From positions 1 to 39,131 of IMG/VR virus record IMGVR_UViG_3300048592_000629: a DNA stretch of 39,131 nucleotides; one strand, given 5' to 3'. The translations under genes and the position numbers were made by a program. The DNA is from a virus. This document shows, one piece after another, positions 1 to 39,131 of this stretch; the stretch's first letter is position 1; each line of letters begins with the position of its first letter. A model generated the notes under the pieces. That model saw only the letters and a list, made by a program, of their open reading frames with translations. It searched no databases and had not been told where the DNA came from.

Positions 1-63
1 TCGGGGGCTGCCTCCCGCTTGCGGTATCTATGTGATAGTCGCGTGAGCTTCCAGGTTTTCCTC

Positions 64-86
64 TCGCCGGTCGTCAGGACCGGCGA
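64..86. other. Perfect 9-bp hairpin in the repeat spacer
   Basis: TCGCCGGTC (64-72) pairs perfectly with GACCGGCGA (78-86) around a GTCAG loop. No T-run follows, so it does not look like a simple Rho-independent terminator. Lying between two copies of the 40-bp element, it may be part of an origin or of a structured RNA. Confidence 0.7.
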
Positions 87-104
87 CTGCCTTCGATCTG
101 CTGG

Positions 105-144
105 TCGGGGGCTGCCTCCCGCTTGCGGTATCTATGTGATAGTC
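105..144. repeat. Second copy of the 40-bp element
   Basis: This stretch is an exact copy of bases 1-40, beginning TCGGGGGCTGCC and ending GTGATAGTC. It contains short inverted segments (CCGC-TT-GCGG, and TATC-N5-GATA). Two further copies lie in the right-end repeat. The spacing start to start is 104 bp. Spaced direct copies beside hairpins suit an origin or a protein-binding region. No gene covers it. Confidence 0.9.
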
Positions 145-19436: not shown

Positions 19437-19505
19437 TTCTGACACCTTCCTGATTTTTTCCTTTTACATAGCCATTTTATATAGTGTTTATGCGGGGTGC
19501 GCCGC

Positions 19506-22500
19506 ATGAACATAAATGCGTCGCTTGTTGAAGCTTCGTCTGAAATCGCTGCACTGGCTGCGGAATGCGGGATCGACTGGTATCAGGTATCCAACCTCAA
19601 CCTTGGGATCAATAAGCACCCTCCGGTCATAGACAAAAGGTACAAGGGAAAATGCAGCTTTTGGGTTGAAGAGAGCGGCGAGCGCACGCGCATCACATTT
19701 CACACTCATAAGCACGGCGGCCTTTCCAGAGTCTGGTCCAGCGATAGAAAGCAGGCTGGGCTGCGCCTGCTCACGCGAAACAACTCCACCAATGAGCAGC
19801 GCGAGAGGGAACGCCGTAAGGCTATCTATCAAGGCTATCAGAACGCATTCAATCGCGCTTCCCGAGTTGAAAGCTTTGCGTATCTTGAACGCAAAGGCAT
19901 TGCGGATATCGTGAAATACTTTGACCTCCGCATCACCAGCGACTCTGCCGCCATGAACGGCAGAGGCCCCATCAAATATTTCATCTGCTATCCTCTGCAT
20001 AACGTCAATGGTACTTACGTCGGTTTGCAGCGCATCTATGCAGACGGTGCAAAGAAACTAACCAGCAGCCTGGCCGAAGGCCAATACAAAGGGGCCTTCG
20101 CCGTTATCGGTGATCTCGCGGCATCGGAGACTGTGTACGTCGCCGAAGGCTTTGCGACTGCCGCCAGTATCTTCCTGGCGACCGGAAAGCCTGTTGTGAT
20201 CGTATATAGCGCAGGCAACATTGAAGCCGTTTGCAGCCAGCTGACAGCCCGGTATGAAGACCATACTTTCATCATCTGTGCAGATAACGATGCCTCGCCG
20301 AGCGGTAACACCGGGGTATTCAAGGCGTTCGAGGCAGCCAAGAAACTTGGACTATCGGTACTTGTCCCTCCAACCTTGGGCCAGGCGGATTTTAACGACT
20401 GGCACCTGGATGCCGGTCTGCATGAATTGCGGCATTTCTTCGACACTGAAAAGCCGCAACGGCCCAAAGCCAAGCAATGCGATCACCTGCTTTTCCTTTT
20501 GCAGTATGCGCACCGCCAGCAAATTCCTGACCTGGTAAAAAGGCTGGCTGTTGTCTCCAAGGTTCCGCATTACATTTCAGGTGATGACCTTGCGAAATCA
20601 GTCAAGCAAGTCCTGGGCAATCGGTACGATGCGGGATCTGTTGTCAAAGCGATTCGGTCAGTGATTGCTGCCAGCACTTTCAGAGCCCGCGAAATATCTG
20701 ATATTTCAGCCAAGAGCGTGGACAAAAAGCTGAGTTTTGAAACAGAGCTTTCCCCGGAAGGTCATAGCGTTATCAGCGATTCTGCAGTCTTTGCCATGCT
20801 CTCGGAACTGGACGAAGGCGCTCTCGTGATTCTGAAGTCTCCCATGGGCACCGGGAAAACAGAGCGGGCCATAAAGCTGGCTATCAACAGCGCGAACCGC
20901 GCAGCCCATATTCTGCCCCGCATCTCTGTCTGTGATGACGCCGCCACACGCCTGAATATTGAGCATTATAAACACGTCGATAACATTGTCGCGCTCTACA
21001 CGAACAAGATGGTTTCCTGTGTAAACTCGATGGGTGCGGATCGGTTCAGCAAGGATCAGGTATCCTGGTTTGAAAACTTGGATGTGCTTTGCCTGGATGA
21101 AGCCAGCCAGATCCTGCCTCAGATTACCCAGCTTGGCCGCGCCCAAAGAAGGAAGGCCAACTATGAGTCGATGTGCAAAGCCATACGCACAGCCCATTGT
21201 GTTCTTGTGGCTGATGCGGACGCTAACGAGTACTTGGTCGAAGAACTGCGCAAAATCAATCCCGAGCGCAAGATCGTGCTGATTGATGTCAAACACAATG
21301 TAAGCGTGAACAAAAGATGGGGCATCAATTTCACCGACAATACAAAATTGAATATCGAGCATATTATCCGCTCTGCTGCGCAAGGCGAGCGTTGTCTGGT
21401 TGCGACCGACAACCGAACCCGCGCCCTTGAAATTGAAGAGGCGATACGGACCATTCAGCCTAATGCCAGCATTCTGAACGTCCACCGGGAGCCGACAGCG
21501 GAAGCAAAGGAAAGGATCGACCGTTTCTATAAAGATCCCAATGCCGAGGTTGTCCAGTACGATGTGCTGATCTATTCACCGGCGATTACCTCCGGTGTCT
21601 CCATTACTGTCCAGCATTTTCAAAAACACTTTGGCGTTTTCACTGGCATAGTCAAAGCCAACGATATCTTCCAGATGCTTGGACGCGACCGAACCGCCAG
21701 GGAATGGCTGCTGTCTGTCACCTCGAGAAAGGTCAACCGCATGATCTTTGATGCCTCTGCTGGCATGGAAGCCATTGGGGAAAAGCTCACTCCTTTTGGT
21801 GCGCTTAAGTTTGCAAATGACGACTATGAGGAAAAAGCGAGGGATAACCTGGATGTCCTTATCTTGACCATGCTCAAGCTGAAAGGCCATACGGTCAACA
21901 TAATTTCCAGCGGAAAAGATGATCTGAACAAAGAACTTGGCGCGGTAATGAAACACGTGTCCGAGCAGATCTACAGCAGAAGGCTGGATACCATACTGAG
22001 CCAGCCGGATATTACAGAAGGCGAATTCCTCGCCATTTGCCAGAAATGCTTCCCTACGGCGGAGGACGCCGCAGCAATCAGCGCATATCGCATTCGTCAC
22101 CAGCTCGGCATGGATCTGACCGAGGAAAGCGTGAAGTTTCTGGACCGTGGGGGAATGCAGAAGGTTCGGCTCTTGGAAACTGTCATGGCTTCTGAAGAAG
22201 CTGTGGCCAGATTTGACCAGGAACAAAAGCAAACACATGACCCAGCCTTGCGTTACTACGCTGGAGAGAAGCGGGCCATGATCATCGAGGCCATCAAACT
22301 TCTGAAGATTGATACCCCGACCTTTAAAGGCGAGTTCAGGCAACGGGATTGCGAGAAGGTTGTGGAATTCTTTCTGCAGAATGCCTTGAAGGCTAACATT
22401 CTGTTTGACCGTATCATTGACCCCAGAAATCCACCCAAAGGCGCAACAAGATTTGTCATGAAACTTTTCGCCCGTCTTGGCTTCAAGGTCGGCAAGCGCA

Positions 22501-22634
22501 AGTCTCATGGCAACATGGTTCGATTCCTGGATGCTGAATCCGTTGCGCAAATGCTTTCGATCCTCGATCGCCGTAAATCACTGAATCAGAATGAGCTTCA
22601 GCAGCAGGGAGAGGACACCTCCCGCGTTGCGTAG
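19506..22634 (+). CDS. TOPRIM primase-helicase, CyRepA1/OBP-like replication protein
   Basis: A protein of 1042 residues from the ATG at 19506, with GGGGTG 6 bases upstream. The N-terminal half carries a TOPRIM domain: the glutamate strand VAEGFATA at about 210-217 and the Asp pair in CADNDAS at about 257-263. The second half is an SF2-type helicase: Walker A SPMGTGKTE near 443-451, a DEAD-like box CLDEASQ near 529-535, then SPAITSGVS and QMLGRDR near 690-728. This C-terminal pattern is that of origin-binding/CyRepA1 plasmid replication proteins. No polymerase gene accompanies it, so host polymerases must do synthesis. Confidence 0.8.
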   Translation: MNINASLVEASSEIAALAAECGIDWYQVSNLNLGINKHPPVIDKRYKGKCSFWVEESGERTRITFHTHKHGGLSRVWSSDRKQAGLRLLTRNNSTNEQRERERRKAIYQGYQNAFNRASRVESFAYLERKGIADIVKYFDLRITSDSAAMNGRGPIKYFICYPLHNVNGTYVGLQRIYADGAKKLTSSLAEGQYKGAFAVIGDLAASETVYVAEGFATAASIFLATGKPVVIVYSAGNIEAVCSQLTARYEDHTFIICADNDASPSGNTGVFKAFEAAKKLGLSVLVPPTLGQADFNDWHLDAGLHELRHFFDTEKPQRPKAKQCDHLLFLLQYAHRQQIPDLVKRLAVVSKVPHYISGDDLAKSVKQVLGNRYDAGSVVKAIRSVIAASTFRAREISDISAKSVDKKLSFETELSPEGHSVISDSAVFAMLSELDEGALVILKSPMGTGKTERAIKLAINSANRAAHILPRISVCDDAATRLNIEHYKHVDNIVALYTNKMVSCVNSMGADRFSKDQVSWFENLDVLCLDEASQILPQITQLGRAQRRKANYESMCKAIRTAHCVLVADADANEYLVEELRKINPERKIVLIDVKHNVSVNKRWGINFTDNTKLNIEHIIRSAAQGERCLVATDNRTRALEIEEAIRTIQPNASILNVHREPTAEAKERIDRFYKDPNAEVVQYDVLIYSPAITSGVSITVQHFQKHFGVFTGIVKANDIFQMLGRDRTAREWLLSVTSRKVNRMIFDASAGMEAIGEKLTPFGALKFANDDYEEKARDNLDVLILTMLKLKGHTVNIISSGKDDLNKELGAVMKHVSEQIYSRRLDTILSQPDITEGEFLAICQKCFPTAEDAAAISAYRIRHQLGMDLTEESVKFLDRGGMQKVRLLETVMASEEAVARFDQEQKQTHDPALRYYAGEKRAMIIEAIKLLKIDTPTFKGEFRQRDCEKVVEFFLQNALKANILFDRIIDPRNPPKGATRFVMKLFARLGFKVGKRKSHGNMVRFLDAESVAQMLSILDRRKSLNQNELQQQGEDTSRVA

Positions 22635-25399: not shown

Positions 25400-26341
25400 T
25401 TATTCATAGACTGAGAGCTTAGAGTTGGGATCAAATTCCGGCATGGCTTGTTTGGTAATGCAGTCACTGAATGCAACCATGAATGTGCTTTTGTATTTTT
25501 TGACATTCTCCGGGTCATCATAGTTTACGTCCGGGTGCGTTGCGCCGATGGTATGTAAAATCTCATGGGCAATGGTTCCAGCCCAATAGCCTGGATGCCC
25601 ATAGGCTGGAACGGGTACAATGTTGCCATCCCGGTCACGGCCATATCCTTTGAGATGGTTCCAGTTCAAGGCAATCACCGGCCTGGCCACCGAAGCATCT
25701 CCAAGGTAAGCACGTCCAAGGATATTATCTTTCCATACCTTCACGATACGCAGGTCGTACTTCACACCTGGAAAGCCGGGAATGTATGGCCAGGAAGGCT
25801 CGCGTGATTCCCGCCAGATATTGGCATGACCATAGGTGTTAACATTCCAAAAATTCAAACCCCAAAAGTCTGCCATCTCAAAATGGTCATAATTCAGACC
25901 TGATGTACATTTGCCCAAGCCGCTATTCATGGGGTCTTTCAAGAAAAAAACGCCCAACTGCTCGACCGCAGTTTCCAGAGATTCCTTGATCAGCTGTCGG
26001 TCCTGGGGTGTGAAGCTCGGTTCCACGTAGGCTCTGAATGTGTCGGTTTGGTAAACCAATACGTTCGCAAGATCAGGCTTATCAAGGTTGTCGCCGCTGC
26101 CATAGATCCACGGATATGGTGTAGCGTCACGGCATTGGAGCTTTGCCTTTAAATCTATACAGGCATAGATGCAATCCACGTAGTTTCCATTATTGATGTC
26201 TGGCGAAGACGGCAAAGGCTGTTCACCGATCACCGAATCTGGATCAGTGCATTGCTGGGTACAGGTTCCAAGTTCGCAAATGAAGCCATACGACTGTGTA
26301 GAATAAAGAGCGGCTGCAAGAAAGATGGTCTTTAAATTCAT
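25400..26341 (-). CDS. Secreted metzincin-type metalloprotease
   Basis: A protein of 313 residues with a signal peptide (MNLKTIFLAAALYSTQSYG). The zinc motif is HEILHTIGATH (259-269), which matches HExxHxxGxxH of the metzincin clan, and a downstream Met lies in STFMVAFSD as a possible Met-turn. The N-terminal part of the mature protein has several Cys, suggesting disulphides. The start at 26341 has GGAG upstream. Export would place it outside the cytoplasm or in the envelope. Such a protease is rare in phages. It is convergent with the lipoprotein gene, with only 7 bases between them. Confidence 0.8.
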   Translation of the reverse strand: MNLKTIFLAAALYSTQSYGFICELGTCTQQCTDPDSVIGEQPLPSSPDINNGNYVDCIYACIDLKAKLQCRDATPYPWIYGSGDNLDKPDLANVLVYQTDTFRAYVEPSFTPQDRQLIKESLETAVEQLGVFFLKDPMNSGLGKCTSGLNYDHFEMADFWGLNFWNVNTYGHANIWRESREPSWPYIPGFPGVKYDLRIVKVWKDNILGRAYLGDASVARPVIALNWNHLKGYGRDRDGNIVPVPAYGHPGYWAGTIAHEILHTIGATHPDVNYDDPENVKKYKSTFMVAFSDCITKQAMPEFDPNSKLSVYE

Positions 26342-26642
26342 GTTCACTCCAAGTTTATTTATAATCATTTTTCCTTCAAAACCAGAACAGAACTGGATTG
26401 TGCGGGATCTTATCATGAGGGATGGAAAGTCGAATGAACGATCAACTCGATAGAATCTGAATAAAATGGAAGTTTCATGGGGGCTATGGATTCCAAAAAA
26501 ATATGGAGTAAGGTCTGGCAAGGCCTTGATAGATGCGGCGTTTGCGTGTAAAGACACACAATTGAAAGCGCCGCCACTTAGGTCATCTCATAGGTGGACT
26601 TTAAAAGCTGCGCCTTAAATCAGAACAGACCAGGAGCGTTAC
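26342..26642. other. Divergent intergenic region, 301 bases
   Basis: No supported gene. It holds a leader ahead of the membrane-protein cassette with short inverted segments: GGCG...CGCC enclosing GTGT-AAAG-ACAC (about 26537-26573), and CCACTTA with TAGGTGG (about 26574-26597, one G-U type mismatch). The promoters of the protease and of the cassette must lie here, but I could not define their boxes. Confidence 0.45.
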
Positions 26643-26909
26643 GTGGCCAATTTTACTGACAAAAACATCTCCTGGACTCTGCCAATCATAACAGTGGTTC
26701 GGTACGTATTCATGGCATTGACTATAATTGGGTTTACTGTTTGGAGCTTTGATGCTCAGAACACGTTGCTAGGAGCGTATTTTAGCGATCGCCTGACAGA
26801 CTCATTTTTCAAAACCTATGTCATTTTTGAGGCCTGTTACTGGGCACTGAAATACAAAAAACTTCTCAATTCCATGAAGACAACAACCAAATGCCTCGTT
26901 TGTCACTGA
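26643..26909 (+). CDS. Small two-span membrane protein, paralogue A
   Basis: A protein of 88 residues from GTG with GGAG 6 bases upstream. It has hydrophobic spans at about 13-35 and 62-72 separated by an aromatic, polar loop. It is clearly related to the next gene product: SFDAQ versus SFDYQ, and YVIFEACYWALKYKKL versus WLVLEAIYWHAKYKDL. Tandem duplication followed by divergence is the simple explanation. The C terminus ends CLVCH. Function unknown. Confidence 0.65.
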   Translation: MANFTDKNISWTLPIITVVRYVFMALTIIGFTVWSFDAQNTLLGAYFSDRLTDSFFKTYVIFEACYWALKYKKLLNSMKTTTKCLVCH

Positions 26910-26932
26910 TCACTTCCTTGGGAGTAACCAAT

Positions 26933-27148
26933 ATGGGAATGAAGATTCTATTAGCTTTGCGTCTTGCATGGCTTGCCATCGTTGTAATTGCTTTGCTTGC
27001 AAGCTCATTCGATTACCAAGGCCCACTTTCTGATCCGTATTTGACGTCACATTATCTTGACCTCTTCATCCGCACGTGGCTGGTGCTTGAAGCTATATAC
27101 TGGCACGCAAAATACAAAGACTTAAAAAAGAGCGGGGTATTAGCGTGA
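26933..27148 (+). CDS. Small membrane protein, paralogue B
   Basis: A protein of 71 residues from the ATG at 26933, with GGGAG 8 bases upstream. It shares the loop and C-terminal pattern of the previous gene product (SFD.Q, then LE..YW..KYK.L). It keeps a span at about 8-25 and a second at about 48-60. Its stop overlaps the next gene start (GTGA), so translation is likely coupled. Confidence 0.65.
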   Translation: MGMKILLALRLAWLAIVVIALLASSFDYQGPLSDPYLTSHYLDLFIRTWLVLEAIYWHAKYKDLKKSGVLA

Positions 27149-27912
27149 GAAAATTCGTAACTGCATTACTGCTATTCGGTAGCTTTTCATTTGTAGAGAA
27201 AGCATCAGCTGCTGTTCAAATTGGAAATTCTTTCTTTACTGAAATGTGTGTGGACAACAGAGAATTTTGCTCAGTCCTTGTCATCAACCCAGTTAAAGGC
27301 GAAGTGTCTGTGAATGTGTATCCTCATCTGGGCTACAACGTTCCTACTGGAGTTGATTTTGAAGGGATACGTGTCGGACCAGCAAGTGCTGCAAGTTATA
27401 ACAGTCTCAAAGCTTTAGGACTTGAAACTCTCGATACTACGATAGAAGAACTTCTTTCAGTCTACCAGGCACGACAAGCCGAATTGGATCAAATCGACGG
27501 CAAAATCGCAGCTGAAGAAGAAAAGTGCCTTTGGTCGGCTACCTCCTGTGGTTCAGGTCTTGTAGGTGCCGTGGCCTCAAGAAGATTTTGGGGTCTGATT
27601 CCAGCAGCGATAAACTGCAGAAGAGAACGTATGTCTTGTCAGGATGCACAGGCAATCAAATCAGAATTGAGACGACAAAGACAAGTCCTGTTGGAAGAAA
27701 TTAAAAAGGAAGAGGAAGAAAAGGCCAAGGCAGAAAAAGAAGCTGCTAAAAAAGATGGTGGTGGTGGCGGTGAGAGAGAAGGTGGAAGGCCTAGTGATAC
27801 CCGTGCCCCTGGCAGTAGAGAAGCAGTTCCTACCAGAGGGAGTGAAGTAACCATTAGAGAGTCGAGGCCCACTGGTGGGGTTCCGCTTGGACGCCGACCG
27901 GTTTTATTCTAA
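27145..27912 (+). CDS. Exported coiled-coil protein of the membrane cassette
   Basis: A protein of 255 residues. Signal peptide MRKFVTALLLFGSFSFVEKASA is followed by a beta-type domain with two Cys (CVDNREFC), a helical middle with further Cys (EEKCLWSATSC, NCRRERMSC), a Lys/Glu-rich coiled coil (about 178-202), and a Gly/Arg/Pro-rich tail. The GTG start overlaps the stop of the membrane protein before it. Together the three genes look like one unit, an exported protein with two membrane partners. Family not recognised. Confidence 0.65.
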   Translation: MRKFVTALLLFGSFSFVEKASAAVQIGNSFFTEMCVDNREFCSVLVINPVKGEVSVNVYPHLGYNVPTGVDFEGIRVGPASAASYNSLKALGLETLDTTIEELLSVYQARQAELDQIDGKIAAEEEKCLWSATSCGSGLVGAVASRRFWGLIPAAINCRRERMSCQDAQAIKSELRRQRQVLLEEIKKEEEEKAKAEKEAAKKDGGGGGEREGGRPSDTRAPGSREAVPTRGSEVTIRESRPTGGVPLGRRPVLF

Positions 27913-27974: not shown

Positions 27975-29357
27975 TCACGCTTTCAAAATGCGCGGTTGCA
28001 CGCCTGACAGCATGAGCGGACCAAGAATTACGAGCGCTAGACAGGTGAACTGAATGAAAAAGTTACCATTGGTTTGGCTTGAAACTATTGCTGGTATTGA
28101 ACTTTGAACGCCAGATTTTATTTCTGCATACCTTGATTCCATTTCCTTTCTCATTGCTTTCATGTCATCAATAGCTTTCGTTATTTCCTCATTCATTCGA
28201 CGGCCTGCAGTGATTCTGCCATCTGCATACGCTGCTTGCTGCTGGGATCGCAGATTTCTGATTTGTTCCTCTACAAAAACAATCTCGGTTTTGATTTTTG
28301 TCAATACGTTATCTGATTCAGCAGCGGCATCGGCCTTGCTGTTTAGCTCACGCTCATATTCAGATGCAGCCTTTGCTTTCTTTGCATCAAGACCGTTAGC
28401 AACTACCTGCCCATTAACGTAAATCAAGCCGCCGATGCCGGCTACGCAGATCAGCATTGCAAGCTTTGTGCGGCAGTGAGGAAGCAGGAGCCCTGATGCG
28501 AACAGTACGCTTTCTACAAGGAGAGCTTGGGTCATGCCGATCAAGTCAGTCCCAAAAAACTGGATGTTGTTGTGAATGAGCAAGCCGTATGCGGCGACCA
28601 TTCCCAATTGAAAGAGTAAGACGCCTGGGCTGATCTCTTTTAGCCAGGCGGTTATGTCGTCTATCGCCGATTTCTTTGGTGTTACTTTTTTCGTATCAGT
28701 CTCATAGCAGGTAGGATTTGCCTGTATCACGGTACGGTCATCCAATTTATTGATACGAATTTCCCGTACCATTTCCGAAACGGACTTCAAATGTTCAAGC
28801 TGTTCCTGTCTGATTGTCTGGAAAGCAGCAGCCATTTCCGTTCTGATTTCTTCACGCAGGGCAGGCACGTCAAGGTTTGTCGCTGCCAATTTTCGGAAGG
28901 CTTGCAGCTCGGTCTTGATTGATTCAATGGACTCTTTTATAGAACCAAGATCATCTTGCATCTGGGATTGCTCGGAATCAAGACTCTTAAGGCCTCGTTG
29001 GAAAGCGGATACAGCCGTTTCAAGTTCAGCAATCTTTGATGCTGTAGGATGTGGGATGACATTCGACTTATCCATTCCTAGCTTCTCCCGTAACGTATCG
29101 AAATCTTTTTCTGCTACCAGTTCACGCAGTTTACTGAAAGCGTAACGTTTTTGACGACAATAATCCTGGATATCCTCCGGCCATCGGCCTATAGAAGCCA
29201 GAGCTGAAACATATTGAGCTGACTTGATCCCCAGTGTGTGCAGATCATGGATGATATTCTCACGGGTTGCCTCAGTATTCTCACGCATATATTGAACTAC
29301 TTTTATTGATACTTCGATAGGATTGTTTCGTAACGTTAAAGAAGGTGATACGTGCAT
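27975..29357 (-). CDS. ParB/KorB-like HTH fused to coiled coils and four membrane spans
   Basis: A protein of 460 residues from the ATG at 29357 (GAGGT upstream). Residues 30-80 follow the KorB/ParB HTH pattern (TRENIIHDLHTLGIKSAQYVS then ALASIGRWPEDIQDY). Residues 105-200 are coiled coil. Spans lie at about 244-262, 272-292, 298-320 and 433-453, with a second coiled coil at about 330-415. No ParB CTPase motif (GERR-type) was seen. It is divergent from parA and its promoter region holds CGTAACGT repeats. I infer a membrane-bound DNA-binding protein, possibly a plasmid tether. The HTH call needs a profile check. Confidence 0.6.
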   Translation of the reverse strand: MHVSPSLTLRNNPIEVSIKVVQYMRENTEATRENIIHDLHTLGIKSAQYVSALASIGRWPEDIQDYCRQKRYAFSKLRELVAEKDFDTLREKLGMDKSNVIPHPTASKIAELETAVSAFQRGLKSLDSEQSQMQDDLGSIKESIESIKTELQAFRKLAATNLDVPALREEIRTEMAAAFQTIRQEQLEHLKSVSEMVREIRINKLDDRTVIQANPTCYETDTKKVTPKKSAIDDITAWLKEISPGVLLFQLGMVAAYGLLIHNNIQFFGTDLIGMTQALLVESVLFASGLLLPHCRTKLAMLICVAGIGGLIYVNGQVVANGLDAKKAKAASEYERELNSKADAAAESDNVLTKIKTEIVFVEEQIRNLRSQQQAAYADGRITAGRRMNEEITKAIDDMKAMRKEMESRYAEIKSGVQSSIPAIVSSQTNGNFFIQFTCLALVILGPLMLSGVQPRILKA

Positions 29358-29388
29358 GGAATACCTCGATACGATTTTTCGTAACACA

Positions 29389-29417
29389 ATAATATCGAGA
29401 GGATATCTAAGTGTCAA
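29389..29417 (-). promoter_or_regulatory. Strong sigma70-type promoter of the membrane-HTH gene
   Basis: On the - strand, TTGACA (29417-29412), a 17-base spacer, and TATTAT (29394-29389) give a near-consensus promoter. It points at the gene starting at 29357. The half repeat CGTAAC at 29380 falls at the expected transcription start, which suits autorepression. Confidence 0.7.
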
Positions 29418-29420
29418 TTT

Positions 29421-29448
29421 TTTACAGTCCCATACGTTACACTATTAA
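29421..29448 (+). promoter_or_regulatory. Probable parA promoter
   Basis: TTTACA (29421-29426) and TATTAA (29443-29448) are separated by 16 bases on the + strand. The inverted repeat copy (29432-29441) lies in the spacer and another copy immediately downstream, so a repeat-binding protein would repress parA. Confidence 0.45.
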
Positions 29449-29519
29449 CGTAACGTATAAAGCAGTTCATGATTGCGCGACAAAATTACAGCGGCTATAA
29501 TCTAATGATGGAGATAAAT

Positions 29520-30284
29520 ATGAGTGCCAAAATTATTGCAGTATGCAACTTCAAAGGCGGCGTCGGCAAAACCGTAACGGCCCTTGAATTAGCCTATGAG
29601 CTGGCTCAGACCAGCAAGGTTGGTTTTGTGGATCTTGATGGTCAGGCAAATGCCACAAAGCATCTTCTGGGTCATATTCCTGAAAAGGGTATCTATGATC
29701 TCTTCGATGATCCCGAGCAGGCGACCAGTGACTTTGTGGTGGGGCTTGATGCAAAGTGGGGGCAGATGGTTCTGCTGCCAGGTACGCGGGATCTGAATGT
29801 CGTTGACCGGATGATATCTGACCGCTTCCAGCGGGAGATGATACTTGCTGAAATTCTGGCTCCCCTCAGAAAGCACCTTGACTACATAGTAATAGATACG
29901 CCGCCATCGCTCGATTCGAGAGTGGTGAATGCTCTATGCGCTGCTGACCTTTACCTGATACCCACGACCAGCAGCGCCTATTCCATGGACGGTATAAAAT
30001 CCATAACGACCATGGCGGATAGGATTAAGGCAAAGATCAATCCGCATCTGGAGCTGCTTGGTGTACTCGTGACCCAGTTCGACAAGGCAAACTCTCTGGC
30101 AATTCGGGCCATGATTCGGGAAATTAAGGAAGCCCACCCGGATCGTTACCTGGGAGAGATTTATCATTCTGTTAAGGTTCTCGAAGCTGGCTTGGTCAAA
30201 GACTCAATCCAGCATTTGGATGTGAATAACCGCGTGGCTGTCAGGTATAGAGAGCTGGCGAAGAAAGTTAAGGAGTTGGTATGA
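29520..30284 (+). CDS. parA: ParA-type partition ATPase
   Basis: A protein of 254 residues with the deviant Walker A motif KGGVGKT (12-18), FVDLDGQAN (36-43) and DYIVIDTPPS (121-130). ParA ATPases move plasmid copies apart over the nucleoid. There is no N-terminal HTH, so it is of the short type Ib class (ParF-like), whose partner is a small ribbon-helix-helix protein, as found immediately downstream. The start is taken at 29520 with GGAG upstream. Without an integrase in the window, this gene is the main sign of plasmid-like maintenance. Confidence 0.92.
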   Translation: MSAKIIAVCNFKGGVGKTVTALELAYELAQTSKVGFVDLDGQANATKHLLGHIPEKGIYDLFDDPEQATSDFVVGLDAKWGQMVLLPGTRDLNVVDRMISDRFQREMILAEILAPLRKHLDYIVIDTPPSLDSRVVNALCAADLYLIPTTSSAYSMDGIKSITTMADRIKAKINPHLELLGVLVTQFDKANSLAIRAMIREIKEAHPDRYLGEIYHSVKVLEAGLVKDSIQHLDVNNRVAVRYRELAKKVKELV

Positions 30285-30589
30285 GCGATCTTTTGAACAA
30301 CATTAAGAACGATGCGGACGGAAATTTTGCCGAAAAGACTCTGGGAAAAAATAAAAAGAAAGTGGCTGGAGCCCAGGCGGAAGACGTGATGTCCAAGCTC
30401 CTGACAAAAAAGGTTCCCAAAAAAATTCAGGTGCCAAGTTACCTGGACGAGCAGACTGTGCTTGACCTTGACGCCTGGTGTATGAAAATGACTTTTGAGA
30501 ATCGGAAGATTGAGCCAACCAGCAAACCCATCTCCCGAGCTGGCGCGATTGAAGCAATTGTGCAACAATTTCTTGAGAACAATAAGTAA
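30281..30589 (+). CDS. Probable ribbon-helix-helix partition partner
   Basis: A protein of 102 residues with start overlapping the parA stop (ATGA). A basic, flexible N terminus (about 1-45, with KKKVAGAQ) is followed by KIQVPSYLDEQTVLDLDAW, a strand and helix of RHH type, and SRAGAIEAIVQQFLE, the second helix. Type Ib partners such as ParG have this plan: a mobile tail that stimulates the ATPase and an RHH dimer that binds the centromere. It is the expected binder of CGTAACGT repeats. Assigned from position and pattern. Confidence 0.65.
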   Translation: MSDLLNNIKNDADGNFAEKTLGKNKKKVAGAQAEDVMSKLLTKKVPKKIQVPSYLDEQTVLDLDAWCMKMTFENRKIEPTSKPISRAGAIEAIVQQFLENNK

Positions 30590-30626: not shown

Positions 30627-31172
30627 ATGGCAGACAAACCACTGGATCTTGTCAAGTGCCCGCCCGAGATTGCCACCAAGATTGACGCCTATATCAGCCT
30701 GCAACAAGAGCTTAAGCGCCGCGAGCGGGAGCTCCAGCATCTGCGCGAAATGATCCTTGATTATGGTAAGAAGGTGCGAGCCGACCGGATTGCCACAGGG
30801 TTGCCGGATCTTTCCTTCAAGATGGAAGGGTATCGGTACGCAGTCTCATACGTTTGCGCCGAAACCAGCGGCAGCATTTCCCATTCAGAATTTGAAAAGC
30901 TTAATCAGGAGTTTGGCGGGCTGGCCCGCCAGCTCGTTGAGCTTGACTATTATGCGTTCCGGTTTGATGCGGATGTCATGAGAGAAAACTTTCGCACAAT
31001 CCTTGGCGCTATTGAGTCACTGCCGAAGGAGATTGGGCGCGATGTCCTGCGGCCAGTGCCGCTAACCCTTAAGAAAGGTTGGGTTGACCATCTGCGAGGA
31101 ATAAAGGACACAGCCTTTATCATAAGGGTTCTGGAGAAATTCAAAGCAACAGTGAAACTGCAGGAAGGTTGA
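30627..31172 (+). CDS. Coiled-coil hypothetical protein
   Basis: A protein of 181 residues from the ATG at 30627. The N-terminal part is a coiled coil (SLQQELKRRERELQHLREMILDYG, about 24-47). The rest is mixed and includes a Tyr-rich segment (EGYRYAVSYVC). The stop overlaps the patatin gene start (TGATG), so translation is coupled. It does not match a family I recognise. The switch-like leader suggests its expression is controlled after the par operon. Confidence 0.65.
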   Translation: MADKPLDLVKCPPEIATKIDAYISLQQELKRRERELQHLREMILDYGKKVRADRIATGLPDLSFKMEGYRYAVSYVCAETSGSISHSEFEKLNQEFGGLARQLVELDYYAFRFDADVMRENFRTILGAIESLPKEIGRDVLRPVPLTLKKGWVDHLRGIKDTAFIIRVLEKFKATVKLQEG

Positions 31173-32077
31173 TGTTCTATAGAATCCTGGCATTGGATGG
31201 TGGTGGGCTCCGCTCGATTTACTCTGCACAGATTCTCTTTAGGCTGCATGACCAGTACAGAATATTGGATAAGGTGGATATGCTGGCCGGTGTCAGCGGT
31301 GGCGCGATCGTGGCGGCAGGGCTGGCTTGCGGCTGGTCGCCGTCGCAGATAGTGGACTTCTTTTTCCAGGATGGTCCAGACATTTTTGAGCGCACAGTCT
31401 ATCCAGGTGTCATTGACGAGTTAGCCTATCTGCGCCGCAGCAAATACGGCACTGGCCGGTACACGTACTTCAAAAAATATTTTGGTGATAAGCGGCTTGA
31501 GGACTACCGTAAAAGAATTGTGATTCCCAGCTTTGATACCCGGCATAAATCCGGCCTATGGCAACCGATATCATTTAGCAACTTCCCAGGCTCGCCGCTT
31601 CGGTCTGAAAGATTCCTTGATGCTGTGATGTCCAGCACTGCCGCGCCCATCTATTTTCCAGTAAATCAATTTGGGGAAACAAAGTATATCGACGGCGGAC
31701 TCTGGGCCAATAACCCTGCAGACGCGGCATTGGCAGAGGCTTTGCGCTCGGACCATGGCGGTGTCCCGTTCGATAAAATCTGCATCCTTAGTATTGGAAC
31801 CACGCAGGGTAAGATGATTCTGGATTCTCCCAAGAATAACATGGGGCTTCTGGACTGGTTCCAGTCTGGCGTTGTGGATCTGCTTACCGACGCAGGGGCA
31901 AAGCTGGCCATAGACTACAAGCTGCGCAGTGCGCTTGGTCCCAGATACTGCAGGGTGGACGAGATAATTGATAACCCGATTGATCTTGACGAAATATCTG
32001 CAATACCGCGTTTGGTAAGGCTGGCGAACGAATACGATATCGAGCCAGTTGGGGCTTGGCTTCAAGGCTTTTGGTAA
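31172..32077 (+). CDS. Patatin-like phospholipase
   Basis: A protein of 301 residues. Oxyanion loop DGGGLR (9-14), nucleophile elbow GVSGG with Ser42 (40-44) and catalytic dyad Asp174 in YIDGGLW (172-178) are all present, so the enzyme should be active on acyl lipids. It has no signal peptide, hence a cytoplasmic product unless released by a holin. It lies in a run with the endolysin, so a lysis role in membrane breakdown is possible; a defence or exclusion effector is the alternative. No CD-NTase partner is seen nearby. Confidence 0.9.
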   Translation: MFYRILALDGGGLRSIYSAQILFRLHDQYRILDKVDMLAGVSGGAIVAAGLACGWSPSQIVDFFFQDGPDIFERTVYPGVIDELAYLRRSKYGTGRYTYFKKYFGDKRLEDYRKRIVIPSFDTRHKSGLWQPISFSNFPGSPLRSERFLDAVMSSTAAPIYFPVNQFGETKYIDGGLWANNPADAALAEALRSDHGGVPFDKICILSIGTTQGKMILDSPKNNMGLLDWFQSGVVDLLTDAGAKLAIDYKLRSALGPRYCRVDEIIDNPIDLDEISAIPRLVRLANEYDIEPVGAWLQGFW

Positions 32078-32870: not shown

Positions 32871-33623
32871 CTAGCGAATGAGCCAGAAGTCGTCCGAAAG
32901 ATCGGGGTTCTCTATGAATTCATAGGGAAGAAACCCATATCCGTTTTGGCCCCAGGCTGTACCCCAGGAATTCCTTATGATTAAAGCTTTTCTGCTGTCG
33001 CTGTAGCCAACAGCAAGCACCGCATGACCTCCCTCAAGCTTCTCTTTTCGCTTGGGCAAGGGGATCATCCCCGTCTTTTCAACCTTTCCCTGATAGATGG
33101 ATTCATAGACCGAGAAGCCAAGAGCGATTGGAAACCCGTCTATAAGGGCTTTTCTGAAGTGGCTTATCTCGCGTGATACCCGTTCGTACTTTCTGATTTT
33201 TTCGGTGCTGGCGATCTTGAATGCTTTGGCTGGCGGCTTTTTGCTGAACCGGCTTGTCAGATACGGCCAGGATTCCTCGGGAGGATAACCGAATTTGACC
33301 ACGGATTTGATCGCGTTGCGGATCTCTGCGCCTGCATCCGTGTCCGTAGTCCCTTCTATGGATCTGGTCGCGTAGTAAATGAATAGGCGGGATGGGACCA
33401 CGATGGAATTATCGCGGTCAAAGACATCCCTGAAAAGGCAGGCTGCCGCGACTGTCTGAGCCGTGCAGCTGCCGAGGCTTCCCTGCTGCCAGCACCGGAA
33501 GAAGCGGTCGCGCAGGTCGAATTCCCTGGCCTGCCGTCCCATGTTCCTCGGTTTAAAACGTAGATCCCTTTGGTCAGGTACGTCTGGCTTCCAGCCTTTT
33601 ATGGCTGCTGGCTTTGGCTGCAT
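32871..33623 (-). CDS. Papain-like cysteine protease (C1A type)
   Basis: A protein of 250 residues from the ATG at 33623. All active-site parts are visible: QQGSLGSC (Cys53), EGGHAVLAVGY (His200) and IIRNSWGTAWGQNGYG (Asn218), matching papain. The Trp that follows the Cys in papain is replaced by Thr. The propeptide is very short and no signal peptide is seen, so it acts in the cytoplasm or is released by lysis. Papain-like enzymes are uncommon in phages of this size. It follows a 75-residue gene that ends just before it. Confidence 0.9.
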   Translation of the reverse strand: MQPKPAAIKGWKPDVPDQRDLRFKPRNMGRQAREFDLRDRFFRCWQQGSLGSCTAQTVAAACLFRDVFDRDNSIVVPSRLFIYYATRSIEGTTDTDAGAEIRNAIKSVVKFGYPPEESWPYLTSRFSKKPPAKAFKIASTEKIRKYERVSREISHFRKALIDGFPIALGFSVYESIYQGKVEKTGMIPLPKRKEKLEGGHAVLAVGYSDSRKALIIRNSWGTAWGQNGYGFLPYEFIENPDLSDDFWLIR

Positions 33624-33630
33624 GGGAGTC

Positions 33631-33858
33631 TCACTTCTTGCGGGGCTTAAGACCGGCGGTGCCTTTTCTCTCGTTTGTTTTCGCGGCCTGCTGAATCCCC
33701 TTGTTGATGAGCTCCAGGGCAACAGGAGCTGGGAGAGCAGCAAGAATGCGGAACGTAACGGACAGAATGCGCGTGACATCCGTTGCTGTCACGTGTGAAT
33801 GCTTAGGGCTGGTATCCGCCACACGCTGAACTTGAGTGATAAGGTCTTTGAGCTTCAT
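33631..33858 (-). CDS. Small helical protein upstream of the cysteine protease
   Basis: A protein of 75 residues with a strong ribosome site (GGAGG, 7 bases from ATG). It has a helical body with an Ala/Pro/Leu-rich hydrophobic segment (ILAALPAPVALELI) and a basic Lys/Arg tail (GTAGLKPRKK). Its stop lies 8 bases before the protease start, so the two are co-transcribed. An inhibitor or chaperone of the protease is possible, but nothing in the sequence shows it. Confidence 0.6.
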   Translation of the reverse strand: MKLKDLITQVQRVADTSPKHSHVTATDVTRILSVTFRILAALPAPVALELINKGIQQAAKTNERKGTAGLKPRKK

Positions 33859-34001
33859 GCGTTTTCCTCCATGGTTTTATCATAGCTTGCCGTCCAGATT
33901 TTGAACACTTACTCAAGGTAAACATCCTGAAAATACTAAGAATTTCTTTGGCCTGGAAACTGCAGATCCAATCTTTGGCAATTTTTTGGAGGCCGGATAA
34001 G
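33859..34001. other. Divergent promoter region
   Basis: 143 bases between the divergent protease operon and the Hsp70 gene. No gene or clear repeat is seen. The ribosome site GGAGG at the right edge belongs to Hsp70. Confidence 0.5.
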
Positions 34002-35810
34002 ATGCTGAAGTTCCTTAAAAAGATGATCGGATCGCATGATGCTGTTGGGATTGACCTTGGTACTACAAATAGTTTGATAGCCGTATTACAGGATGGATCT
34101 CCTGTTGTCATTCAGAGCGAGGAAGGCCGAAACCTTACTCCATCTGTTGTTGCTTATACCAGTAAAGGTGAGGTTCTGGTTGGTGATGCTGCAGCGCGGC
34201 AGTTTGTTTTGAATGGACATGGAACCTTGTTCGATACAAAGCGCCTGATAGGACGCTCCTTCGAGCAGTGCAAACAGACCGCTTTCAGCGTGCCATACAC
34301 GGTGCGGCCAGGTCTGGATAAAATCAAAGCTGTGGCTGAGGTACATGGACGCCTTATCACACCAGAGGAAGCGGCTGCAGAAGTTCTTGGGAAGCTTAAG
34401 CGCAGCGCCGAGGCTTTCCTTGGCCGATCAATTTCCAAATGCGTGATCACCGTACCCGCGTACTTTGATCAGCCCATGCGCGAGGCCACCATGCTGGCTG
34501 GCAAGCTCGCTGGCTTCGATGTGCAGGCGCTCCTTAATGAGCCCACGGCGGCAGCCTTGGCCTATGCCCAGGATCTTGAAGGCACCGAAAAGGTGGCCGT
34601 CTATGACCTCGGTGGTGGTACGTTTGATATCAGTATTCTGGATATCAGTGGCGAATCTGAAGACGCAAATGCCGCTGTTAAAGTCATGGCCGTGGGCGGT
34701 GATCCCAACCTGGGCGGGTCAAATTTTGATGAGCTTTTGATAGCGAAGCTGGTATCCAAGTTTGCAGCAGAGTCTGGAGTCAACATCACAGAGAACAAGG
34801 AAGCCATGCAGCGCCTGCGGGATGCTGCGCAGAAGGCCAAGATTGAATTGTCCACCCTTAAGCAGGTGGATATTAACCTGCCTTTCCTTACCGTGGATCA
34901 GTCTGGCCCAAAACATTTCAGTTATTCGATTACCCGCCAGGAGTTTGAAGCCCTTATCAAGCCGCTGGTTGATAAGTCGATTGCGATTATGAAGAAGACC
35001 ATTGAAGAGTCCGGGCTTTCCACAAAAGACTTAAAGGTTTTGCTGGTAGGTGGTTCAACCCGTGTACCATTGGTGCAAAAGATGGTGGCTGATCTGGGCT
35101 GCAAGGTGCTTGCCAACCAGCGCATTGATGAGTTGGTTGCGCTCGGTGCTGCCTTGTTCGCCGGGATTGTAAAGGGAGACGTGCAAACGGAATTCCAGGA
35201 CGTGACCAGTCTTGACCTTGGCGTTCAAACCATCGGCGATGTAATGAGCGTTATCATTCCAAAGAATACCGATGTGCCTTGCGAGAAAAAGGATTTCTTT
35301 TCCCCGGTCCAGGATTACCAGACCCATTGCAAAATCAATATCTATCAAGGGCAGGATCGAAAGGCGTCGGCCAATACGCTCCTGGGTTCCGTGCTCTTGG
35401 AGATATCGAAGCCTGGTCCCATGAAGGACATCAAAGTTACCATAACCTACGCGATCGACGGCAACGGAATCCTGCACGTGTCAGCCGTTGACCAGGAAGG
35501 CGCAGAGCAGAAAGTCACTTTTGAGAATGTCCATAAGATGGATAAGCGGGAAATCAAGCGGATTGAAAAAGAGCAGGCCATGCCTTCGGAGCAGCGGCAG
35601 GAGCTTAACCTGCAGCGCATTGCGCTGAGTGAAGAGATTAAGCGTATCGAAGAAGCAGCAGAAGAAGCCGGGCCAAAGGAAAAACAGAAGCTGCTGGCTA
35701 CGATTGAAGAAGCAGAGCAGAAGCTTCAGGAAGAAGTATCTGCCAGGCTTTTGACCGGCGCAGTGCAAGATATCAAACGGCTGGCTGACAAGCTGGAGGA
35801 TGCGCAATGA
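34002..35810 (+). CDS. dnaK: Hsp70 chaperone (DnaK family)
   Basis: A protein of 602 residues, nearly full length for DnaK. The nucleotide domain has GIDLGTTNS (16-24), VYDLGGGTFDISI (about 199-211) and LLVGGSTRVPLVQ (about 347-359). The hydrophobic linker region TSLDLGVQTIGDVM leads to a complete beta substrate domain with DGNGILHVSA, and a helical lid ends at LEDAQ. It should fold proteins with ATP. No dnaJ or grpE is in the window, so it must use host co-chaperones. An upstream in-frame start at 33948 lacks a ribosome site; GGAGG precedes 34002. An Hsp70 gene in a phage genome of this size is unusual. Confidence 0.95.
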   Translation: MLKFLKKMIGSHDAVGIDLGTTNSLIAVLQDGSPVVIQSEEGRNLTPSVVAYTSKGEVLVGDAAARQFVLNGHGTLFDTKRLIGRSFEQCKQTAFSVPYTVRPGLDKIKAVAEVHGRLITPEEAAAEVLGKLKRSAEAFLGRSISKCVITVPAYFDQPMREATMLAGKLAGFDVQALLNEPTAAALAYAQDLEGTEKVAVYDLGGGTFDISILDISGESEDANAAVKVMAVGGDPNLGGSNFDELLIAKLVSKFAAESGVNITENKEAMQRLRDAAQKAKIELSTLKQVDINLPFLTVDQSGPKHFSYSITRQEFEALIKPLVDKSIAIMKKTIEESGLSTKDLKVLLVGGSTRVPLVQKMVADLGCKVLANQRIDELVALGAALFAGIVKGDVQTEFQDVTSLDLGVQTIGDVMSVIIPKNTDVPCEKKDFFSPVQDYQTHCKINIYQGQDRKASANTLLGSVLLEISKPGPMKDIKVTITYAIDGNGILHVSAVDQEGAEQKVTFENVHKMDKREIKRIEKEQAMPSEQRQELNLQRIALSEEIKRIEEAAEEAGPKEKQKLLATIEEAEQKLQEEVSARLLTGAVQDIKRLADKLEDAQ

Positions 35811-38987: not shown

Positions 38988-39131
38988 TCGGGGGCTGCCT
39001 CCCGCTTGCGGTATCTATGTGATAGTCGCGTGAGCTTCCAGGTTTTCCTCTCGCCGGTCGTCAGGACCGGCGACTGCCTTCGATCTGCTGGTCGGGGGCT
39101 GCCTCCCGCTTGCGGTATCTATGTGATAGTC
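38988..39131. repeat. 144-bp terminal direct repeat (right copy)
   Basis: It is identical to 1-144, including both 40-bp elements (38988-39027 and 39092-39131) and the 9-bp hairpin of the spacer. It marks the same place on the circle as the left copy. Confidence 0.95.

Follow-up and report, generated by a model that had tools for sequence, protein, structure and literature searches.

Divergently from parA (29520-30284), the IMG/VR virus record IMGVR_UViG_3300048592_000629 carries a gene whose predicted product joins a DNA-binding-like head to hydrophobic spans, which raises the question of whether such a protein could bind phage DNA at the membrane and take part in partition. We analysed the entire record (39,131 bp, hereafter the window); its relevant features are collected in Table 1. 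The back-to-back arrangement with parA described in an earlier, sequence-only reading of this DNA is correct, and the frame itself is real. It comprises 460 codons from an ATG at 29357, and the open frame spans 488 codons, whereas no frame exceeded 207 codons when the region was shuffled 500 times. Its promoter comes from a scan in which chance predicts 1.4 sites with at least 9 of the 12 consensus bases in the stretch.

Table 1. Features of the window that bear on the membrane-protein gene and its surroundings
Feature	Position	Strand	Basis
RepA primase-helicase, N15/VP882/phiHAP-1 type	19497-22634	+	tblastn to VP882: 29% identity across 97% of the protein, E 4e-112; NF042913 above cut-off
460-aa predicted membrane protein with DNA-binding-like head	27975-29357	-	long open frame; GAGG ribosome-site-like sequence before ATG
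Hydrophobic span 4, residues 431-453	27999-28067	-	hydrophobicity rule
Second helical, possibly coiled-coil region, residues 322-427 (106 residues)	28077-28394	-	model and heptad test
Hydrophobic span 3, residues 297-321	28395-28469	-	hydrophobicity rule
Hydrophobic span 2, residues 272-293	28479-28544	-	hydrophobicity rule
Hydrophobic span 1, residues 243-263	28569-28631	-	hydrophobicity rule
First coiled-coil/helical region, residues 105-205	28743-29045	-	periodicity significant for 105-160 only
CGTAACGT copy 1, inside membrane-protein gene	29089-29096	+	
Residues 45-80, in register with second half of ParB/KorB HTH	29118-29225	-	8.7 bits, 1/5000 shuffles
CGTAACGT copy 2, inside membrane-protein gene, 52 bp from copy 1	29141-29148	+	
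Predicted helix-turn-helix, residues 32-56	29190-29264	-	AlphaFold2 single-sequence model, helices 32-41 and 46-56, pLDDT about 70
CGTAACGT copy 3, codons 8-10 of membrane-protein gene	29329-29336	+	
Partial copy TTTCGTAAC, at inferred start of membrane-protein transcript	29377-29385	+	
Sigma-70-like promoter TTGACA-17-TATTAT of membrane-protein gene	29389-29417	-	11/12 consensus bases
Inverted repeat ATACGTTAC-N9-GTAACGTAT between membrane-protein gene and parA	29432-29458		perfect 9-bp arms
CGTAACGT copy 4, within inverted repeat	29449-29456	+	
Possible parA promoter TTGCGC-17-TATAAT	29473-29501	+	read from sequence; under the scan's threshold
parA, 254 aa, no N-terminal HTH, Walker KGGVGKT	29520-30284	+	PF13614 E 2e-39, phrog_164
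102-aa gene overlapping parA end, candidate ribbon-helix-helix-like centromere-binding ParB	30281-30589	+	arrangement as in phiHAP-1 and VP882

The termini of the window (1-144 and 38988-39131) are identical, and its first 40 bp recur after 104 bp. The record is probably circular, an assembly repeat being the other possible origin of the identical ends. Since the record carries genes for terminase, portal and SU10-type adaptor, a repA of the N15/VP882/phiHAP-1 type, a divergent repressor-like HTH gene preceding repA, and parA, it is likely to represent a phage-plasmid. RepA, ParA and the direct terminal repeats thus support the phage-plasmid assignment made previously. Neighbours anchored on RepA have no clear gene in common with the window except RepA and a distant ParA, so synteny is of no help.

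Several other genes were observed in the window. A full-length DnaK/Hsp70 (620 aa, 33948-35810, + strand) has its best phage match in Pseudomonas phage Y6 (42% identical), where no further gene clearly corresponds to one of the window. A patatin phospholipase (31169-32077, +) matches CBASS effector models, with no adjoining nucleotidyltransferase noticed, and a papain-family cysteine protease is encoded at 32871-33779 (-). The product of 25400-26557 (-) has a secreted look and a metzincin-like motif, HEILHTIGATH. Two overlapping genes (26643-26909 and 26891-27148, +) encode small paralogous membrane proteins, 34% identical over 65 aa, and the product of 27145-27912 (+) looks exported, with a charged coil, a glycine-rich tail and no family match.

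The closest matches of the ParA are chromosomal Soj loci. Its gene overlaps the 102-aa gene by four bases, and a similar overlapping pair is found in phiHAP-1 and VP882. No family match was found for the 102-aa protein itself; the small protein of phiHAP-1 has a sub-threshold match to RHH_3 (E 0.0096). Because of these pairs in phiHAP-1 and VP882, the 102-aa protein, on which the sequence-only reading is silent, is more likely than the membrane protein to be the centromere-binding ParB partner, and the membrane protein would be a third component. The gene divergent before parA encodes a protelomerase in phiHAP-1 and VP882 and the membrane protein here. The stretch 29432-29520 differs from phiHAP-1, where a protelomerase gene and a repeat region precede parA; here the membrane-protein gene takes their place, together with an inverted repeat that is unrelated.

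The 460-aa protein opens with the DNA-binding-like head (residues 1-95). A coiled coil (105-160) comes next, then three hydrophobic spans close together, the second helical region and, at the end, the last span. The sequence-only reading had proposed two coiled-coil regions and four membrane spans. The first coil holds, with heptad periodicity at residues 105-160 above all 2,000 shuffles and absent at 160-210, but the signal at residues 322-427 is weak and only suggestive, with 116 of 2,000 shuffles as good. Family matches of the protein at E 1e-5 to 1e-2 coincide with the coiled-coil regions; we attributed them to composition and set them aside. All four hydrophobic segments were recovered, and the same rule found none in the parA, portal, terminase and Hsp70 products; at a looser cut-off, composition alone yielded four segments in 22 of 1,000 shuffles. 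We take the segments as a good sign, short of proof, of membrane insertion. With a cytoplasmic head and all four inserted, the second helical region would lie outside the cytoplasm, as three spans separate it from the head.

The head was compared with our own profile of 16 ParB and KorB HTH regions, on which it scores 8.7 bits, with 1 of 5,000 shuffles as good. We also scored 6,783 segments of 94 aa taken from long reading frames; leaving aside pieces of ParB or SopB, no more than a handful reach this score. The stretch KSAQYVSALASIGRWPEDIQ aligns to KSRSAVTNLLRLLELPEEVK of the profile and keeps the register of its recognition helix and of the one that follows, but the first HTH helix of the profile is unmatched. 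Pfam, NCBIfam and PDB sequence searches found no HTH in the protein, which is below every curated threshold, and neither PF17762 nor PF08535 matches in the record. A SopB-type HTH was not found either (2.1 bits on the SopB profile, 164 of 5,000 shuffles as good). Modelling the fold, a check suggested by the sequence-only reading, gave a mixed answer: five helices cover residues 13-92 and an HTH-like pair is placed in two models, but the mean AlphaFold2 pLDDT is low (63), and Foldseek with this low-confidence model found nothing in the PDB better than E 1. All structural matches listed (Pex14, winged helices, homeodomains and KorB among them) have Z under 5, with KorB 1r71 at Z 2.7, so no fold is named for the head. 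The proposed resemblance to the KorB/ParB HTH thus survives as a half-motif above chance, below all curated thresholds and lacking a fold match, and a ParB-like HTH in the head is plausible.

The claim that the usual CTPase motif is missing is borne out: GxRR and ENxQR of the ParB/Srx domain were not found in the 460-aa protein, about 12 residues precede the first helix, and no Pfam match was obtained. ParB and KorB are soluble with a C-terminal dimerisation domain, and here four spans and a second helical region are predicted instead. Compared with KorB/ParB of the Spo0J type, the protein is alike in the in-register alignment of residues 45-80, and differs in being a predicted membrane protein without a CTPase domain or a significant family score.

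Repeats link the gene to parA, as the sequence-only reading had noticed. The four copies of CGTAACGT in the 39-kb record all lie at 29089-29456, that is, within 370 bp covering the membrane-protein gene and the parA promoter region, and no other 8-mer in the window has four copies inside 400 bp. The partial copy TTTCGTAAC extends a repeat of 19 nt that is present at 29309-29327 and 29361-29379 with a spacing of 52. If partial copies are counted, neighbouring copies show a spacing of 51-52 bp twice, which is close to five turns of the helix. The centre of the inverted repeat is about 63 bp from the inferred transcription starts of both genes. The three copies inside the gene might be positioned as centromere or autoregulatory sites.

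No relative of the protein was retrieved from plasmids and phages by tblastn, with either the full sequence or the head alone. Scans of GTDB genomes and IMG/VR seeded with 8-mers from the whole protein, the head and the C-terminal part, which detect close relatives only, were empty, as was the search of 13 virus records with a related RepA. In 398 genomes of the phylum of Methylovulum, only coil-level matches appeared. Matches to a degenerate WP[ED][ED][IV]Q pattern were attributed to chance. The protein is a singleton within the databases searched and, with no relative found, conservation cannot back any part of the model, be it head, spans or neighbourhood.

We tentatively prefer to read the protein as an accessory of partition in the phage-plasmid, integral to the membrane and DNA-binding, with both properties predicted. 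The cytoplasmic head (residues 1-95), through its putative ParB-like HTH, would bind the CGTAACGT repeats both within the gene itself and in the promoter region shared with parA. The first coiled coil would assemble the protein into a dimer or higher oligomer, and the spans would keep the protein-DNA complex at the inner membrane. Binding may control parA and, by autoregulation, the gene of the protein itself, and the extrachromosomal prophage could be positioned or stabilised together with ParA and the 102-aa ParB-like protein. This reading is suggested by the above-chance, in-register HTH likeness with rightly placed helices in two models, the confinement of the repeats to the gene and the divergent promoter region, the strong promoter with a partial repeat at the start, and the adjoining parA in a record with a phage-plasmid RepA. 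It is further suggested by TubY (PMC7762940), RocS (PMC11500499) and KfrA of RA3 (PMC7783346), which work likewise. Against it stand the HTH score under all curated thresholds, the pLDDT of 63, the Foldseek search with nothing better than E 1 and the empty searches for relatives; the 102-aa protein or another protein could also bind the repeats, and TubY and RocS reach the membrane by an amphipathic helix, not spans.

TubY, which belongs to type III partition systems of plasmids and phages, resembles our protein in its HTH DNA-binding head, coiled-coil oligomerisation and membrane association, and in being a regulator and segrosome component encoded near yet separate from the partition operon, but it has a MerR-type head and an amphipathic tail and works with TubZ/TubR, not ParA (PMC7762940). 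RocS of Streptococcus pneumoniae likewise combines an HTH head, a coiled coil, a membrane end and a role in segregation, whereas it is a chromosomal protein of a Gram-positive host with a MerR-type winged HTH and an amphipathic helix (PMC11500499). No MerR or DUF536 Pfam match, as expected of the TubY/RocS/pSK1 Par type, was found in our protein, which has hydrophobic spans rather than an amphipathic helix. KfrA of IncP-1/IncU plasmids has an N-terminal DNA-binding head and a coiled coil, is autoregulated and contacts the ParA/ParB homologues IncC and KorB, but is without membrane spans (PMC7783346, PMC7821693); for our protein, Pfam gave no match to KfrA (KfrA_N being its DNA-binding domain) even at E 10, and only coil-like pieces aligned by BLASTP to R751 KfrA. 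As TubY and RocS rely on amphipathic helices and spans are missing from all three, the proposed likeness to them is one of working, not of descent. The phage-encoded integral membrane protein p16.7 of phi29 binds phage DNA at the membrane, but its ligands during lytic replication are single-stranded DNA and terminal protein, and its layout differs (PMC4974454).

The main rival, unlikely in our estimate but serious, is a transmembrane transcription regulator in the manner of ToxR/CadC, with an HTH head in the cytoplasm, spans and an outer helical region that would sense envelope state and control the protein's own gene as well as parA; maintenance or induction of the prophage would thereby respond to membrane stress. 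CadC and ToxR have winged-helix heads and usually one span, and are not known to have a long coiled coil before it, so a long coil followed by four spans would be unusual for them; moreover, three of the four exact CGTAACGT copies lie in the coding region, not at promoters. On the other side, the order of head, span and outer region fits, the inverted-repeat centre is about equidistant from both inferred promoters, and transmembrane regulators, with a cytoplasmic DNA-binding head, a membrane span and an outer region, are common and mostly have HTH heads (PMC10269533). Of these elements, the spans are predicted in our protein and the DNA-binding domain is weakly indicated (8.7 bits, low-confidence model).

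Rather unlikely, too, is an ordinary partition system of ParA, the 102-aa protein and a CGTAACGT centromere, the membrane protein being an unrelated accessory (in exclusion or host interaction, for example) whose head does not bind DNA and whose gene merely overlaps the centromere. The gene pairs of phiHAP-1 and VP882, the sub-threshold RHH_3 match, several nearby genes of host-interaction type and the lack of a significant database match for the head favour this explanation, but the rarity of the ParB-HTH score among shuffles and the HTH-like helices of the model speak against it. That the membrane protein itself binds the centromere for ParA, as a CTPase-less ParB comparable to ParT of SCP2 yet anchored in the membrane, is highly improbable. 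In its favour, the putative ParB-like HTH comes without a CTPase domain and CTP is not essential, judging by ParT (PMC12260392), but a small candidate ParB already overlaps parA, a membrane-fixed partner would not track the nucleoid-bound ParA gradient in the usual way, and a clearly basic, ParA-activating N-terminal tail is absent.

It is improbable, though conceivable, that a four-span protein with a ParB-derived head fixes the phage-plasmid genome to the inner membrane in a three-part partition system (ParA, small ParB and anchor), with the outer helical region of the anchor reporting envelope state to prophage maintenance. TubY and RocS, the membrane-bound partition factors found in the literature, are peripheral, and an integral one beside parA would differ from them; the protein described here is plausibly a new form of membrane-linked partition accessory protein. 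If the preferred reading is true, an integral membrane protein with a ParB-like head beside parA would make it possible to test directly whether a phage-plasmid is kept at the membrane or controlled from there.
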